Source of the DNA: Lachnospiraceae bacterium
GTDB taxonomy: Bacteria; Bacillota; Clostridia; Lachnospirales; Lachnospiraceae
DNA length: 64,000 nt
Assembly (NCBI GenBank): GCA_017624835.1
Contig: JAGAMG010000024.1
Span: forward strand, 1-64,000
Direction of reading: 5' to 3'
A program made the translations under genes and the position numbers. Numbering within the stretch: position 1 is the first letter of the stretch; each line of letters opens with the position of its first letter. Shown piece after piece: positions 1,758 through 40,504 of this stretch. Below the pieces are notes generated by a model. That model saw only the letters and a program-made list of their open reading frames with translations. It had not been told where the DNA came from and did not search any database.

Positions 1758-2411
1758 TCATTCCCTTACCAGCTCATACTCCGCCATAATAATGCTCAAG
1801 GGTACTGCTGCCACTTCCCTAACTTCCTCATTTGTTCCGCACAAAATACCAATAAACCATCCCGCTTCATCAAATACAGCGCCACCGGACATACCCGGAA
1901 GAATCTCTCCCCGAATCAACATCATATATTGATTAAAATCCTCACTAAATATCCATGGATAAATAAGAGTACCGCTGATTTGTTCTACATCTCCGGCACT
2001 ATTGCTTCCCTGCATTATCAGCTTTTCATCTCCCGTAAGAGTATCAAAGGCTTCTTTATCAATACTCACAGAAGAATATTGCTTATCTGCTTCCACCCTG
2101 ATAAAAGCAACATCCGAGGAATTGGATATTACATAGGAGCTGCTCTCTACCACACTTCCATCCTCAAAGATAACCTCTACAGAATCCTTTGCCGATTGTA
2201 ACACATGAGCTGCTGTTACAATAATCATATTTTCTTCATTGTTCTTATAAACCACACCGCTTCCGGTAATTTCTCCTGCCGCTATCTGTACAATAGGGGA
2301 CAATTCCTCCTCCGAAGCATTACCACAACCAGCTAGCATTACTGCAAACAGGATAACACATATAAGCACCAACCTATTTCTATATCCCTTAACATGATAC
2401 CAACTAAACAT
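1758..2411 (-). CDS. Trypsin-like serine protease lipoprotein
   Basis: 217 residues from ATG 2411, chosen because AAAGGAG lies 11 bases upstream; a longer frame to 2465 has no ribosome site. An N-terminal hydrophobic stretch ends in MLAGC, a lipobox, so the protein is probably anchored outside the membrane. The trypsin/HtrA catalytic triad is recognisable: His in TAAHVL, Asp in NSSDVAFIRV and Ser in GMSGGAV. No PDZ domain is present, so it is a minimal protease domain unlike full HtrA. Substrate unknown. It stands alone between the toxin-antitoxin pair and the left repeat of the rnpB-associated island. Confidence 0.8.
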   Translation of the reverse strand: MFSWYHVKGYRNRLVLICVILFAVMLAGCGNASEEELSPIVQIAAGEITGSGVVYKNNEENMIIVTAAHVLQSAKDSVEVIFEDGSVVESSSYVISNSSDVAFIRVEADKQYSSVSIDKEAFDTLTGDEKLIMQGSNSAGDVEQISGTLIYPWIFSEDFNQYMMLIRGEILPGMSGGAVFDEAGWFIGILCGTNEEVREVAAVPLSIIMAEYELVRE

Positions 2412-2534
2412 TCGTCGTATTTCTCCTTTTTCACAATGAAACCTAAGCGTAACATATTTTTCCAAATTTCAGCCATCTAATACAAAAACGAACCACCACT
2501 CTTTTGAGCAGCAGTCCAAATTCATTTTCTCTTG

Positions 2535-2575
2535 GTGTAAGCAAGACGATAAGCCAGATTATATCTTGTATAATC
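2535..2575 (-). repeat. Left attachment-site-like repeat: copy of the rnpB 3' end
   Basis: These 41 bases match 7941-7981, the 3' end of rnpB, at 39 positions (differences at repeat positions 22 and 29). Everything between the two copies looks like accessory DNA and an integrase gene sits next to the rnpB copy. This is the pattern left when a tyrosine recombinase inserts an element into the end of a stable RNA gene. The rest of the 2412-2875 gap holds no gene that I can support. Confidence 0.8.
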
Positions 2576-2705
2576 CGACACCCTAGAAAACATGATGTTT
2601 TCGGCACTTTTTGTTGCTAACGGACACATATTTAAACAAATTATAAGCGTTTAAATATAACATTTTTGCTGCTCATTTATCACATATTTGCATTGTATAA
2701 TAAAA

Positions 2706-2730
2706 GTGGTAGCCTCGCAAGAACTACCAC
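2706..2730. repeat. Small inverted repeat
   Basis: GTGGTAG and CTACCAC separated by 11 bases, followed 12-15 bases later by a T-rich stretch. It could be a weak plus-strand terminator or an operator upstream of the membrane protein gene at 2876. Function undecided. Confidence 0.35.
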
Positions 2731-2875
2731 ATTCTCATTCATCATTTTTTATTTTTATCCTCAAATTGTATTTTTATTGTACTTTTTTATTTTATTTGTA
2801 ATTTTCCCCTTCCTTTTTGTCATTTATATATAGGGACATAGGATATATATCATTTATACAAAGGAGGAACGCATT

Positions 2876-3619
2876 ATGGATGAGTTTTTAGCTTACATTA
2901 CAATTTTTCAAATTGCAACTGACTTATTTGATTTATTTATCGGTTCATCATTAATATTTGGAGCCTTAAAATGGAGAAAAGGTCTGTTGTCTGCAACTGC
3001 ATTTTATTGGGGACTGGTACTCGGACTCATCAGCGGCGTATTTTTTACATATGTATTTGATACATCTCCCCTCTCAATACTAATTATGGCAGCTATAGGT
3101 GCTATAATATTCCCCATATTTACATATGTTATCCCTGCTGTAAATCGATTTGTACTTGGTTTTATTGTTGTCATGAAATTATTATTCATGTTTACAACCG
3201 TGATGTGCAAAGATGGAAACATGGAATTAACTACAGCCCTTACTCTTCCTCTCATTTTAGGTACTTTGTCAGGGATTATTTTTATGTTTCTCAAACAGCT
3301 CAGCGTCTTACCATTTGTACTCGGTTGTGTATTTATTGGTGCAAGTCAATTTGCACCTACAATCGCAAAATACATAAATCAATTCATTTTTGGTATTACA
3401 CATGACTACTCTTTGCTATTTGACCCTATTGATTTTATTTTTGCACTCTTTAAAATAGAATTAACAGATGGATTAACTCTGTTACTTGTAATAATATTTA
3501 TGTGTATTGGAATTCCATTTCAACTTCACTCTATCAAAAAGCAAGGATACGGCTATGATACTCCTATTATTGCATTTGAAACAGACGATCCCAATATGCA
3601 TGGCAAAATAGTATCTTAA
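2876..3619 (+). CDS. Unknown polytopic membrane protein, island cargo
   Basis: 247 residues with about six or seven hydrophobic segments spread over the whole length, and a short polar C-terminal tail beginning around HSIKKQGYG. AAAGGAGG lies 7 bases before the ATG, an excellent ribosome site. The glycine-rich pairs of helices recall TMEM198/DUF4203-type proteins, but I do not recognise the family with confidence and give no function. No signal peptide beyond the first helix is apparent. The gene stands alone inside the rnpB-associated island and seems intact, unlike most of the other island genes. Confidence 0.7.
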   Translation: MDEFLAYITIFQIATDLFDLFIGSSLIFGALKWRKGLLSATAFYWGLVLGLISGVFFTYVFDTSPLSILIMAAIGAIIFPIFTYVIPAVNRFVLGFIVVMKLLFMFTTVMCKDGNMELTTALTLPLILGTLSGIIFMFLKQLSVLPFVLGCVFIGASQFAPTIAKYINQFIFGITHDYSLLFDPIDFIFALFKIELTDGLTLLLVIIFMCIGIPFQLHSIKKQGYGYDTPIIAFETDDPNMHGKIVS

Positions 3620-3646
3620 ACAATACAAACATTTTCTATGTCCCGA

Positions 3647-3689
3647 GAGTGTCGCAAAATAACTAAATTTTAGTTATGGAGCAACACTC
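3647..3689. repeat. Imperfect palindrome at the left edge of the IS remnant
   Basis: GAGTGT and ACACTC flank an inner AACTAAA-T-TTTAGTT palindrome. It sits just downstream of the transposase remnant and could be the old IS end or a hairpin derived from it. I see no matching end on the other side near 5170. Confidence 0.45.
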
Positions 3690-3711
3690 CCTTCTTTTGT
3701 TGAAATGAAAA

Positions 3712-3747
3712 TCTGGGAAAACTTCGTTTTTTGAAGTTTTTCCCAGA
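3712..3747 (+). terminator. Rho-independent-type terminator
   Basis: TCTGGGAAAACTTC pairs with GAAGTTTTTCCCAGA around a T-rich loop and is followed by ATTTTTTG on the plus strand. It could end the membrane protein transcript, although it lies about 90 bases past the stop and may belong to the IS end. Confidence 0.5.
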
Positions 3748-3789
3748 ATTTTTTGCATACTTTAACAAAGTTTTCACATCATTTTTAAG

Positions 3790-5150
3790 CTATATTATCG
3801 GAAACAGATAACTTCCCAACCTATCATTCTGGATTTTAGCATGCAGTTTATTGATGATGTATCCCAAACACAGTAAAAGAAGCTCCAGTCTTACTATGGT
3901 TTTCCCACGAAACAGAACTTTTTGGAAATCATAACCATTTTTTAGAACACCGAAAGTACCTTCTACCTGAATGGAGCGGTTCATACGATATTTTATTCCT
4001 GTTTCACTTATAATGTTTTCATAGGACATCTTCCTGTGCTCCATAAAGTTTTTAGATACATACAATCGTTTGTTTCCTTTTGCTTTTGTATATTTATCTT
4101 TGTAAGGACACCCACCGCGGTTTGTACATTCGTATACAGTTACCTCTGATTCATAACCATTCTTACTTTTCTGCTTCTTTTCATACAGTAGAAGCAATGT
4201 TTTTCCAGCATGACAGGTATAGATATCATTTAAAATATCATATCTCATGTTTTCACGTTTGCTTATATCCTGCTTAAAACTTTGTTTTTTCCACTTCTCA
4301 TATGTATGAGACTTAAAATAAGGTATCTGATTTTGCTGCACCAGATAATCATAAGCCTCTTCACTTTCATAACCGGAATCTGCAGTTACACTCGGATAAC
4401 GGAATCTAAGCTGTTTTTCCATATGTTTAAAAATGGAACCATCATCCATACGTCATTTCTTTCCTGAAAAATATCTGCCGCAACAATATATTCACTGTCT
4501 ACACCAATCTGTACATTATATCCGGGGTTTAATTGGGCATTTCGCATATGGTCATCTTTCATGTGCATGAATGTGGCATTCTCATCCGTTTTGGAATAGC
4601 TGTTACGGCTGAAAAAACGTAAGTTGTGCAGATCGTATAGAAACTGTCTGCCAAAAAAAGCTGGAACAATTCCGTATATCGTTGATGTACACTTTTTCTT
4701 TTTCCGCGACCATGTACAAAAACAACACTGTGTGTAAGGCAGTAAAACTTCAGATAATCTACAATTTTTGAAGATAGGCCACTCGGTTTTCTTTTAAAAT
4801 GCCAAAAGACTGCATATAATCCCTGTTTAACATCTGTACGGCATCTTCCATCTTTGCAAACATTTTTTCTTCCCATTTTCCTACGAATTTCTTCCAGCCA
4901 AAAGTATATTTATTGACACAGGCTTCCAGCTTTGTACCATCAAAAAATACCATTTCTTTTGATAATTCACCCATTGCTACAAGTCACCGTACCATTTGAT
5001 AAAACAGGGCTTCGCAGACGCTGGCAGAGCAAGCCAGATACAGCAAAGTGTAATCCAATTCGTGGCTCAGCAATCTGACAGAATCATCATCAGTAATCAA
5101 ACCTTCCAAACAATGTGTTAAACCAATTGATAAATTTCGCCAAGTTCTGC
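3790..5150 (-). pseudogene. Decayed IS1182-like transposase
   Basis: Fragments in several minus-strand frames align in order with one IS1182-type DDE transposase. An N-terminal piece around 5130-4983 contains ITDDDSVRLL. Then come FFDGTKLEA (about 4950), HMKDDHMRN and NPGYNVQIGV (about 4565-4500), TADSGYESEEAYDYL (about 4390) and the C-terminal RSIQVEGTFGVLK with RLELLLLCLGYIINKL (about 3980-3850). At least three frame changes and internal stops break it, and part of the region between the N-terminal piece and the DGTKLEA piece seems missing. It cannot encode an active transposase. Confidence 0.85.
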
Positions 5151-5259
5151 ATAATTTATGTGGTGTAATAAGTTATAAGTCATATCTTATTATACCGTGA
5201 AAAGCAGGTTCTTCGGAGCCTACTTCTCTATTTTTTAGTATAACAATAACATAATAATT

Positions 5260-6125
5260 CTATCTACCCAACACATCAATCATATACAATAGCATTAAAT
5301 ATGACTTTTTTTCAGATAACTTAAATGGCCAAAAAACATTAAACCTTCTGCTTACTTCGATTTCTTTTTCATCCACTCTTTTTTGAATATCTAAGGAAGC
5401 CTGTGCTGCACCTTGTATACTACCTTCGCGTCCTTGTTCTGATATCTCCAAACCTATAAACGCTCTTTGTTTTGTTGCCTTAATAATTGTGTCATTAAAT
5501 CTACTTGCAATAAACTCATTTTCCAAATGCACTCTTTTTGCAATGCTTTCATCATTCTTTCCAACAGAAACTAAAAATTTATTCCATAAATATTCCGGCA
5601 TTACATTCAATTGGCTATGAACCCCTAATACAATAGAATAATCAAATAAATTCTCATCTATTCCAATATTATAAGTTCTTACTTTTTCATATAATTTATC
5701 AAGCACTCGTATCATCTTTGGTGCAGTTGTCATTGGACTAAAAAATGCACGAGCTTTTTTTAAATCTTTTGTTGCAACATTCAAGTACTCTAAATAATCC
5801 TCTTTTGATAACCCTAAGAAGTCCTTTACCATAATAACAATTTTATCACCAACTTCTAAATTGTATTTTTTAATGCATCTTTCATTGACTTTTCATCAAT
5901 ATCTATTAAAAAAATTTTCTCGAAATGTCCACTTAATTTACATAAATCTAGGTCATTACATTTACCAGCTCCAAAAATTGCAGCTGTTTTTCCAGGATTT
6001 GAATTGCTTATAATAAAGTCTGTTATTTCATCTCTATATTTTTCCCAATCCTCAAAAGCATTTTTAATCTCCAAATTTTCTATAGCTATTTTATAAATAT
6101 CCTCATTTAAAGATAATTTACCCAT
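5260..6125 (-). pseudogene. Frameshifted Rossmann-fold (methyltransferase-like) gene
   Basis: Two frames together make one protein of about 288 residues. The 5' part starts at ATG 6125 behind AAAGGAG and contains AAIFGAGKCNDLDL and KIFLIDID, a glycine-rich loop and acidic strand typical of SAM-dependent methyltransferases. It stops at 5856 just after the run TTAAAAAATAC. Adding one A to this run of six joins it to the second frame, which continues into MVKDFLGLSKEDYLEYLN and runs to 5260. The defect is either a real frameshift mutation, a sequencing error in the homopolymer or, less likely, programmed slippage. Substrate unknown. It is adjacent to the small unknown gene at 6200-6541 and probably formed a unit with it. 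Confidence 0.6.
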
Positions 6126-6199
6126 GATTTTTTCTCCTTTGTATTTAATCGGCTTATTAATCACACCAACCGTCAATATTAAACAGCTCCCGCCTAACT

Positions 6200-6541
6200 T
6201 TACAAATAATCTTCTATATCACAAAAATCTATTTCTTTCAGAATATATATTTTCCATTTTTCATTTTCTTTTACATATTTAATATATCCCATTTCTTTCA
6301 GATGCTTTTTAACATCTTCAATTACTTCATAACCCATGTGATCCACAGGACCATTATATGCATAATTTATAGCCTTGTTATTTATTTTCGATGCATAACA
6401 CCAATTACTCTGATTTGCTTTACATTCATTCTCAATATACTTATAGATTCGTATAACAAATAATGCAAATCTTCCATTTCCATTTATAAGTTGGGATGAT
6501 AATACATACTTCTTATGTTCTATTTTCTCGCTATTCCACAT
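6200..6541 (-). CDS. Unknown 113-residue protein
   Basis: The ATG at 6541 is preceded by AAGGGGGG, a strong ribosome site. The protein has no signal peptide or membrane segment. It looks mainly helical, and the C-terminal half (GYEVIEDVKKHLKEMGYIKYV then a basic strand-turn) resembles a winged-helix layout, so a DNA-binding or adaptor role is possible. I do not recognise the family. It is 74 bases upstream of the frameshifted Rossmann gene on the same strand and may be its former partner. Confidence 0.5.
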   Translation of the reverse strand: MWNSEKIEHKKYVLSSQLINGNGRFALFVIRIYKYIENECKANQSNWCYASKINNKAINYAYNGPVDHMGYEVIEDVKKHLKEMGYIKYVKENEKWKIYILKEIDFCDIEDYL

Positions 6542-6729
6542 TATATTCCCCCCTTATAGATATCGTAATTATACCACACTACCTACTATAATTCAACAAA
6601 ACAGGAAAACCGCCCTACTCTACTAAAGCAGAACGATAATGCTCCTGAGTGAAACAGAATCTCTGAACACGCAACTTGATTTTTACGACCTAGGTATTTT
6701 TATGCCCATTTTTAAGAAAGGGTGATATT

Positions 6730-7826
6730 ATGGCAAAGTAAAAGCACCCTAAACTCCCTAATCGCTTGGGCAGTATAAAGAAATTATCCGACAATCGTGT
6801 TAATCCCTATACCATATATCCTCCCACAACAGATTTTAGTGAAAATGGGACTCCCATTACGCCCAATGCCTCTGTTATGTATCTGATTGGTATACCGGTT
6901 TTTATGCACTTATGGAATATAACATTGTCAGTAAAATTATATCTTCCTACAACAACACCAAACGCATCGAATCCGGCAATAAAACATTCGCAGAAGTATA
7001 CAAGCTATACTATGCCGATAAATATGAGAATCCTAACAGTAAAAAGAACTTTTCAAAATCTTCCATCAACGCTTATAACTCCGCATACAAAAAATGCACT
7101 GCTCTATATGACAAGCCAATGAAATCCATCACCAAAACGGATATGCAAAGCATAATAGACTCCTGCATTCTTGGATATGGCAGCTTAGTGAATCTGAAAA
7201 ACCTATTTAGCCAAATGTTTGCCTATTCCCTCCAAAACGGAATTGTCGAAATGGACTACTCACGCTTTGTAACGATAAACACCGAGAAAGACTTTGAAAC
7301 AGGAGAACCATTCACAGAGCATGAAATAAAGCTGCTCTGGCAGAATAAGGACAACCAAGATGTGCAAATCATTCTGATTCTGATATATACCGGTATGAGA
7401 ATTGGAGAATTAGAGGTCGTTGGTATTGATTACACAGAGAACTATTTCAAGGGTGGCTTAAAGACTCCGGCTGGAAAGGACCGTATTATTCCATTCCCGG
7501 ACAGTATCATGGAATATATTAAAACTTTCAATCAGAAATCATTTAATGCTGGAACCTTCCGGGACAAAAAATTTTATAACCTCATTCAATCCATTGGAAT
7601 GGATCCTCTGACAAATGGAAAGAAACATACTCCTCATGATTGCCGCCACACCTTTTCATGGTTGTGTGATAAATATGGAGTGGATGAATTATCAAAGCAT
7701 CTATTGATGGGGCACAGCCTTGGAAATGATGTTGAGAAATCAGTATACGGACATAGAACAGTTGAACAGCTCCGCGAAGAAATTAACAAAATAACTGTTC
7801 CGAATTTGTCACTAACGTGTTGCTAA
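6730..7826 (+). pseudogene. Broken tyrosine integrase
   Basis: The original start is probably ATG 6730, behind GAAAGGGTGA. The fourth codon is TAA (6739-6741). The frame then encodes KLPNRLGSIKKL and NPYTIYPPTTDFSENG, the arm-type N-terminal domain common in Firmicutes integrases. Near 6868-6871 one C appears lost, moving the frame so that LCYVSDWYTGFYALMEYN continues into the catalytic domain. That domain keeps the recombinase residues: Arg in TGMRIGEL, HDCRHTF, LLMGHS and a Tyr in VYGHRT. A protein starting at 6912 could still be made but would lack the arm-binding domain. It ends 115 bases from the rnpB repeat, the usual place for an integrase next to its site. Confidence 0.85.
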
Positions 7827-7890
7827 CGTATTCGTATTTATTCATATTTTATATGATTTATTTCCACTTTTACGTTTACTCAAAAGCATG

Positions 7891-7932
7891 AAAAAACCTA
7901 GTAAAATCAAGCATTTCAGCCATTTTACTAGG
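7891..7932 (-). terminator. Terminator of rnpB
   Basis: On the minus strand an 11-bp stem (CCTAGTAAAAT against ATTTTACTAGG) is followed by TTTTTTC. It lies just past the 3' end of rnpB and is inside the island, so the element seems to have brought or restored a terminator for the RNA gene. It is convergent with the integrase. Confidence 0.85.
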
Positions 7933-7940
7933 TCAAATAA

Positions 7941-7981
7941 GTGTAAGCAAGACGATAAGCCGGATTATGTCTTGTATAATC
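7941..7981 (-). repeat. Right attachment-site-like repeat inside rnpB
   Basis: The last 41 bases of rnpB, including the 3' strand of helix P1, repeated at 2535-2575 with two differences. P1 pairing is complete with this copy, so rnpB is functional despite the insertion. Confidence 0.8.
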
Positions 7982-8344
7982 ATCTATCTACTACGGCTGT
8001 CACCAGCCGTCTCCAGCGACCCACCTGAAAGCAGGCCGGGCAAGCCTGTTGCTTTCTTTTTGGTCTTGCTTCGGATGGGGTTTACATGGCTCCGTCTGTT
8101 ACCAGACGGACGGTAGTCTCTTACACTGCCTTTCCACCCTGACCACGGCGAAGCACAAGTGCTGCGCCGGAAAGAACCCGCAAGCGGCTTCTTTCGCACT
8201 TTCGTTTCCGAAAGCGGGCGGTATATTTCTGTTGCACTAGCCTTGGAGTCACCTCCACCAGACGTTATCTGGCATCCTGCCCTGCGAAGTCCGGACTTTC
8301 CTCACCCGCATTGCTGCGGCCGCGATTATATATCTTACTTACAC
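7941..8344 (-). ncRNA. rnpB: RNase P RNA (class A), tRNA 5' processing
   Basis: Read on the minus strand, GTGAGGAAAGTCCGGAC near the 5' end, GGGCAGGATGCCAG and AACGTCTGG, and GGAGGTGACTC are the signature segments of bacterial RNase P RNA. The ends are set by helix P1: GTGTAAGTAAG at the 5' end (8344-8334) pairs with CTTGCTTACAC at the 3' end (7951-7941) over 11 positions, giving about 404 nt. It is the catalytic RNA that trims tRNA precursors together with RnpA. The last 41 bases are duplicated at 2535-2575. Confidence 0.95.
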
Positions 8345-40202: not shown

Positions 40203-40312
40203 TGTACACAAAAGGAATCTGCCCGAGCATACTTTTCCCCAAAAAGCAAGGCTCCAGCAAATACACACGTACAACCAGTTACTCGTGGTCTGAAACAAAC
40301 GTTTCTGTACAG

Positions 40313-40490
40313 CATTCAGGCAGGTCTCCCGGCTTAAAGATCATCGCATTGGCCATCTTCCCAGTTTCCCAGTGATATAGCGGCTTCTACTCCCTAATTA
40401 CGGTGACGAGTTCGTACAGGATTTGCACCTGTTTCCCTTTTCACCGGAGCCAATCCTATTCAAGATTGCTCCGACACCTGATTACTACAT
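40313..40490 (-). ncRNA. Cobalamin riboswitch
   Basis: Read on the minus strand the conserved segments are GGTGAAAAGGGAAACAGGTG, CAAATCCTGTACGAACTCG with CACCGTAA, GCCGCTATATCACTGGGAA, and AAGCCGGGAGACCTGCC at the 3' side. Order and spacing are those of the AdoCbl-type aptamer. It precedes cbiK by about 250 bases and is the only such element I see in the 20-kb operon. Confidence 0.95.
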
Positions 40491-40504
40491 ATTCAATTCA
40501 ATTT

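Follow-up and report, generated by a model that had tools for sequence, protein, structure and literature searches.

In textbooks, the RNA genes named as integrase targets are those for tRNA and transfer-messenger RNA (tmRNA). Prophages at ssrA, the tmRNA gene, extend the principle to a single-copy non-tRNA structural RNA, which is restored by a tail from attP, the attachment site of the element. The Islander abstract gives the same split-and-restore logic (PMC4383910), and the sites reported for TIGER/Islander are divided into tRNA/tmRNA genes (33.8%), coding sequences (43.4%) and intergenic DNA (22.8%), with no category for other RNAs (PMC12424338). Here, we analyzed a 64,000-nucleotide stretch from a Lachnospiraceae bacterium (assembly GCA_017624835.1, contig JAGAMG010000024.1, positions 1 to 64,000; hereafter the window), in which an element appears to have integrated at the 3′ end of the RNase P RNA gene, rnpB. 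Like the tRNA/tmRNA islands and prophages of the Islander/TIGER class, this locus has an integrase by the regenerated gene, the 3′ end of a structural RNA as host attachment site (attB), a displaced fragment at the far end and an RNA completed by attP. Unlike them, its target is rnpB. For tRNA and tmRNA genes, it is well established that an element can enter the 3′ end and restore the RNA; what appears to be new here is the rnpB target.

We put the probability at roughly 0.93 that a small integrative element, either a satellite or an island, entered the 3′ end of rnpB by tyrosine-integrase recombination and is now a decayed remnant of about 5.4 kb. An earlier note, made from the letters of the window alone, had read the locus in this way, and the duplicated tail, the empty site in relatives, the integrase, the terminal repeats and elements at the same site in other genomes all support that reading. 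The features that define the gene and the two element ends are given below in window coordinates.

1758..2465, minus strand: host trypsin-like protease gene (Pfam Trypsin_2), a common downstream neighbor of rnpB in the genus
2477..2534, minus strand: putative displaced ancestral terminator, GGACTGCTGCTC-AAAA-GAGTGGTGGTTC and then a T-run (from the fold and the alignment to congener locus L006)
2535..2575, minus strand: displaced rnpB tail, probably the 3′ end that the gene had prior to integration (flank like that of congener L006)
2611..2622, plus strand: third arm-type repeat, TTGTTGCTAACG, just inside the other element end
6912..7826, plus strand: open frame of 304 aa for the core-binding and catalytic parts of a tyrosine integrase (PF00589, phrog_1)
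7806..7828, plus strand: two direct arm-type repeats, TTGTCACTAACG and GTGTTGCTAACG; similar repeats follow related integrases
7890..7940, minus strand: terminator now 3′ of rnpB, on the element side (from the fold; like those of congeners G032 and G015 and, weakly, G031)
7941..7981, minus strand: attachment copy on the rnpB side, 39/41 identical to 2535-2575
7940..8341, minus strand: rnpB, class A RNase P RNA (RF00010, 288.1 bits)

The rnpB gene is complete (RF00010 model positions 1-367) and gave the single RF00010 match in the genome, whose assembly is about 85% complete. As the earlier note had claimed, a copy of its final 41 bases, differing at two positions, lies at 2535-2575, and the Rfam match extends one base past the duplicated segment, to 7940. 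A search of the whole genome with the end of rnpB found only the gene itself and this copy (E 5.7e-11). The copy has no rnpB homology beyond the 41 bp, and the longer homology that would mark it as part of an rnpB pseudogene was not found. The 3′-terminal segment of the RNA gene is directly repeated at the two ends of the element, and the gene is whole on one side. Both mismatches fall in the 5′ half of the tail in the rnpB sense, which would be compatible with a crossover 3′ of the mismatches or with decay of the displaced copy. By eye, and not set against chance, segment 7941-7981 includes CAAGACATAA-TCCGGC-TTATCGTCTTG, inverted arms that resemble a recombinase core site.

The claim of a tyrosine integrase beside the rnpB copy was confirmed by profile matches to the open reading frame (ORF) at 6912-7826 (Pfam Phage_integrase, 27.7 bits with a cut-off of 27.1; PHROGs phrog_1 integrase, 1.3e-32). 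The ORF points toward the 3′ end of rnpB, and its stop codon is 113 bp from that end. It contains TGMRIGE, HDCRH, GHS and SVYGH, which we take to be the motifs of the catalytic residues of tyrosine recombinases; the catalytic lysine was not located. By tblastn, intact relatives (L034, L037 and L040) align to the window first in one frame and then in another, with the switch near 6864-6876, and an in-frame TAA stands at 6739-6741, before the switch. Because of the frame change near 6870 and the earlier stop, the integrase gene is broken, and it does not encode an intact arm-binding N-terminal domain. Since a transposase within the element is also in pieces, the word fossil used in the earlier note is apt.

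Repeats just inside both ends are the usual look of arm-type integrase sites. The repeat TTGTYRCTAACG, which follows several related integrases, occurs in the window at 2611-2622, 7806-7817 and 7817-7828 (one mismatch). At ≤1 mismatch it has four matches in 64 kb, one of them distant, against a shuffle mean of 0.72, and 0/100 shuffles reached four; this count is descriptive, as the pattern was picked after the relatives and the window had been viewed. Both flanks, after rnpB and after the displaced copy, fold as a terminator hairpin with a T-run, and the strong hairpin on the element side agrees with the earlier proposal that the inserted side adds a terminator. The 62 nt now 3′ of rnpB resemble the native rnpB terminators of three congeners, namely G032 (score 51, 0/10,000 shuffles as good), G015 (score 34, 0/10,000) and, weakly, G031 (score 21, 85/10,000). 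Because of this resemblance, attP seems to have once captured an rnpB end and terminator from a related species.

To describe the site without the element, DNA downstream of rnpB was taken from 37 same-genus loci (stretches of ≤16.5 kb, 7/37 under 5 kb); 36 include the rnpB 3′ end, and one was too short. The empty site that element-free relatives were expected to show is present: in 20/36 loci, rnpB is followed by the protease, whose match starts ≤625 bp from the rnpB end. None of the 36 stretches examined contained a second copy of its own rnpB tail, the window integrase or the 247-aa cargo protein of the element, and the interval was not seen as ancestral DNA in an uninterrupted relative. 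Past the displaced copy, the next 62 nt are similar to the sequence 3′ of rnpB in L006 (score 27; 2/10,000 shuffles as good); L006 has the canonical gene order, and its flank was one of 29 compared. Given this likeness between the DNA to the left of 2535 and an empty-site congener, we regard the copy at 2535-2575 as the displaced original. In another congener locus, L154 (genome G025), an integrase fragment lies 822-1124 nt past the rnpB end, near the contig end, and reads away from rnpB.

From this arrangement, we suggest a putative mechanism. An attP with the last ~41 nt of rnpB would recombine with the matching 3′ end of the host rnpB by means of the tyrosine integrase. Integration would split rnpB within its tail, and attP would provide an equivalent tail and its own terminator, so that the cell could go on making a full-length and probably functional RNase P RNA. 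What had been the host tail and terminator would then lie 5.4 kb away, next to the old neighbor gene. Later, the integrase would have lost its N-terminal part, an insertion sequence (IS) would have inserted and then decayed, and the element would probably no longer be able to move by its own enzyme.

Several observations weigh against integration at this site. The protease lies 1.6-2.0 kb from rnpB in 3/36 congener loci and is not adjacent in 13/36, and the region downstream of rnpB changes often for other reasons. The junction similarity of the empty site comes from L006 only; the next-best flanks are weak (L013, L023 and L032, with 332, 201 and 451 of 10,000 shuffles as good), the other 25/29 are lower, and the full-length rnpB matches of the congeners are just 73-80% identical. 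The native-like terminator on the element side requires an extra assumption, the capture of an rnpB terminator by attP. Low GC content also fails to set the element apart from its left flank: the interval had been called AT-rich, which holds against the right flank (28-38% versus 40-45% GC in 1-kb windows) but not against the left (33-39%). Moreover, the nearest relatives of the integrase (≤53% identity) were not seen at rnpB in the loci examined, and the preference of the window integrase for this site is suggested by its position only.

These relatives were surveyed as follows. A match to the window integrase at E ≤ 1e-15 was present in 57/299 family genomes, the window's own included. The 29 relative loci listed (L034-L062) are each ≤3.9 kb, and several are cut by contig ends; none had rnpB in its 1.5-kb flanks or a tail-like site with <2 substitutions, and two chance-like sites with two substitutions were seen. 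One of these loci, L038, holds tRNA genes. Three further relatives from genome contigs gave no rnpB match in the stretches examined (L064 ends 100 bp past its integrase match), and no relatives of the window integrase were found in viral contigs. The suggestion that related integrases be sought beside rnpB also had a positive outcome: other integrases do occur at rnpB 3′ ends, as described below, but they are not close relatives of the window integrase.

The 41-bp copy might instead derive from a tandem or segmental duplication of the rnpB tail, with the accessory DNA and integrase as later and unrelated arrivals. The tandem repeats of 113 bp at the 3′ end of E. coli rnpB are a known repeat family, and they demonstrate that a tail can be duplicated without an integrase: in E. 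coli XL1-Blue (L192:709-844), the rnpB tail is repeated 113 bp downstream. The two situations share a partial tail duplicated downstream. However, the E. coli repeats are tandem, with no integrase and no element between them, whereas the window copy is single, lies 5.4 kb away and has a different terminator that resembles the native one of a congener. The window copy also stands at the junction with the common neighbor gene, and arm-type repeats lie inside both ends, which makes a simple duplication extremely unlikely. A 45-nt tail query matched 5,375 of 5,426 E. coli genomes, and the median genome with a match had 2 such places (E ≤ 1).

It is also conceivable that the element side is ancestral, with rnpB and its type-1 terminator native, and that a rearrangement or another rnpB gene gave rise to the left copy. 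The terminator after rnpB does match the native ones of G032, G015 and, weakly, G031. Nevertheless, the left copy is contiguous with the protease gene and cobW, which are rnpB neighbors in most congeners, and its terminator resembles that of L006, a locus of canonical order. The capture of a congener rnpB end by attP would explain the other side in one event. Hence, we consider an ancestral element side very unlikely and prefer integration of an element into the 3′ end of rnpB.

Elements at the same site were found in other genomes. The conserved tail core ACAKAAYYCGGCTTAT, used as a 16-letter pattern, had an exact match in 161/391 same-class genomes, with 0 for the reversed control, and two matches in 9/391, three of which represent elements (G600, G683 and G712). 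Judging by the Lachnospiraceae names among the relatives, this class is probably Clostridia. G683 has a full rnpB, a 46-bp copy 38 kb away (95.7% identical) and an integrase 17 bp from rnpB; G600 has a full rnpB, a tail copy 79 kb away and an integrase 58 bp from rnpB. In G712, a full rnpB is accompanied by a 31-bp copy 63 kb away (96.8% identical); this is the weaker case, as no integrase was found beside rnpB and the nearest is 1.5 kb from the far copy. The figure of 3/391 is a lower bound, since 230 genomes had no pattern match and diverged copies are missed, as the window's own would be. With alignment A1 at E ≤ 1e-100, the only close members among the 391 genomes were G600 and G683, both of which are rows of A1. 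As for the rest of the nine, the second match was a contig overlap in G535, a chance site in G394, G421 and G665, and a second whole rnpB gene in G666; G550 was outside the loci examined. The two full rnpB genes of G666 (L111:4408-4762 and L112:4056-4428) are 23.6 kb apart and 89.7% identical.

Viral contigs provided further cases. In the prophage IMGVR_UViG_3300035388_000034 (L096/L105), the contig end truncates rnpB to its 3′ part (147 bits); an integrase lies ~30 bp from it, and a copy of the tail is found at a distance of 39.5 kb (95.7% over a 46-column alignment). In L085, from a contig with portal and terminase genes, a full rnpB lies 30 bp from a convergent integrase; in L184, a full rnpB lies ~105 bp from a convergent integrase frame; and in L132, an integrase adjoins a fragment of rnpB at the end of the contig (recognized by eye, under the Rfam cut-off). 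A second tail copy was not seen in L085, L184 or L132. Tail-only, attP-like sites stand beside an integrase in L108, L134 (same contig as L188), L183, L189 and Arthrobacter phage TripleJ (L142, L187), and Rfam detected no rnpB in the stretches around them. A similar site in L135 is doubtful, having been seen by eye and missed by the three-substitution pattern. As in the window, a terminator hairpin follows the element-side tail in L108 and the rnpB-adjacent copies of L105 and G683. The high-GC contigs are probably actinobacterial, as judged from their GC content and because Arthrobacter phages have integrases that match that of L085.

TripleJ (NC_049470) resembles the window in having a rnpB-tail-like sequence, ACAGAACCCGGCGTATCGGTC, ~15 bp after its annotated integrase (gp37). 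It differs in that its integrase is not closely related, its tail and its integrase point the same way, and it is known from the phage sequence alone. The GGCGTA variant of the tail is also found in the full rnpB genes of L182, L184, L185 and L186.

The exact long tail pattern had 0 matches in viral contigs, and shorter patterns matched in 14, 29 and 10 stretches. The GAGGAAA motif of rnpB was found upstream in 31/43 of the first viral stretches, and Rfam reported rnpB in 9/16 of those run. An integrase profile search placed an integrase directly at the 3′ side of the tail only in L085, L105 and L108, although this profile was built on limited relatives and may miss others. Several candidates were not counted: L104 (integrase match ~1.3 kb beyond rnpB), L103 (integrase 1.6 kb from a tail-like site), L078 (integrase on the other side), and L080, L081, L087-L089, L091, L094, L097 and L100 (integrase ~1 kb away on the rnpB 5′ side in 8/9). 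The latter nine contigs are very similar, are classed as viral and all carry rnpB.

We compared the integrases found at rnpB with one another. Identity is ≤30% between the window integrase, the G683/L105/G600 set, G712, L108 and the L085/L132/L134/L135/TripleJ set, and it reaches 53-56% within the G683/L105/G600 set and 35-60% within the L085/L132/L134/L135/TripleJ set. L183, L184 and L189 share 65-68% identity and show ~30% or less to other rows (top five per query). One member of this group is integrated in rnpB and two are tail-only, which is as expected if they represent one phage family seen as a prophage and as a free genome. A 42-row tree made by a quick method, with the L183 group left out, needs 5 changes of the rnpB label, where rows labeled as other were screened only over the stretches examined and some may be mislabeled. 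G712 falls beside the G683 set (support 90, long branch), and the number of groups may therefore be five instead of six.

The site is not kept by all relatives of these integrases. L128 (54% identical to the L108 integrase) has no tail near the integrase within three substitutions, and the sole tail site of L129 (50%) has three substitutions and lies inside the integrase match; hence, the L108 group does not keep the site. Among 12 loci with L085-type integrases, its own contig included, the tail is present in L132 and L134 and, by eye, in L135; L131 and L133 are cut off, and the six remaining relatives have no rnpB tail. In L139 and L141, L085-integrase relatives adjoin an apparent glnA end (by eye), where EFELYYDI presumably represents the end of glnA, suggesting a possible target switch within one integrase family.

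On these grounds, we consider it likely that the rnpB 3′ end serves generally as an attachment site, one that is not catalogued in the literature searched and that five or six tyrosine-integrase groups reached independently in Clostridia and Actinobacteria (hosts partly inferred). The elements would carry a captured rnpB 3′ end, including a conserved 3′ strand that we take to be CR-V/P4, and often a terminator, and the RNase P RNA 3′ end and its termination would be element-derived in every lysogen. As at the ssrA prophage sites, the target is a single-copy non-tRNA structural RNA with its tail restored from attP; unlike the ssrA sites, the rnpB sites include CCGGCUUA and the P1 strand. Within the catalytic core of the ribozyme, CCGGCUUA presumably forms the 3′ strand of P4. 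No report of rnpB as an attachment site was found in the literature searched, whose coverage is partial and does not extend to the TIGER 2020 survey; in the passages retrieved, rnpB figures as a typing gene or promoter, as a landmark on maps or as an annotated item. Additional predicted rnpB copies are reported in mycobacteria (PMC9569102); they resemble the window in being extra rnpB sequence in the genome but are not described there as integration at the 3′ end.

With RNase P RNA among the targets, the rule for such integrations extends to an essential, conserved RNA for which a new 3′ end can be supplied. For island finders, rnpB represents a new site class, and it accounts for some of the odd DNA beside rnpB. 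Elements at rnpB are also a natural test of the changes allowed in the RNase P RNA 3′ end and terminator. Because the core ACAKAAYYCGGCTTAT is widely shared, such integrases could serve as insertion tools in many bacteria.

Among the large viral contigs are some that have an RNase P RNA gene of their own. In a 152.8-kb viral contig, L101:2869-3272 matches RF00010 with 196 bits amid 21 tRNA genes. In L083, L084, L092, L068 and L074, a rnpB tail with an upstream GAGGAAA is followed by tRNA-like sequence (by eye). Only L101 is Rfam-supported, and the other five were recognized by motif and by eye.

The remaining contents of the window element are as follows.

2876..3619, plus strand: cargo ORF, 247 aa, hydrophobic by eye; no Pfam, PHROGs or PADLOC match
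3790..4974, minus strand: fragmented DDE transposase, an IS remnant (PF13751 on 3790-4449; other pieces by position only)
5260..6541, minus strand: cargo ORFs 5260-5832, 5856-6176 and 6200-6541; no family match
6697..6911, plus strand: broken N-terminal part of the integrase gene (tblastn of relatives; stop at 6739)

No long terminal inverted repeats were found around the transposase pieces, and PADLOC gave no defense-system match among the element ORFs. Pfam and PHROGs revealed no phage structural or conjugation genes among the cargo ORFs tested, and the element is therefore best called a small island or remnant. Elsewhere in the window, the segment at 1070-1730, between cobW and the protease gene, contains a Gp49-like ORF and an overlapping ORF that is helix-turn-helix-like by eye, perhaps a toxin-antitoxin pair, and a cobalamin riboswitch (102 bits) is located at 40302-40496.

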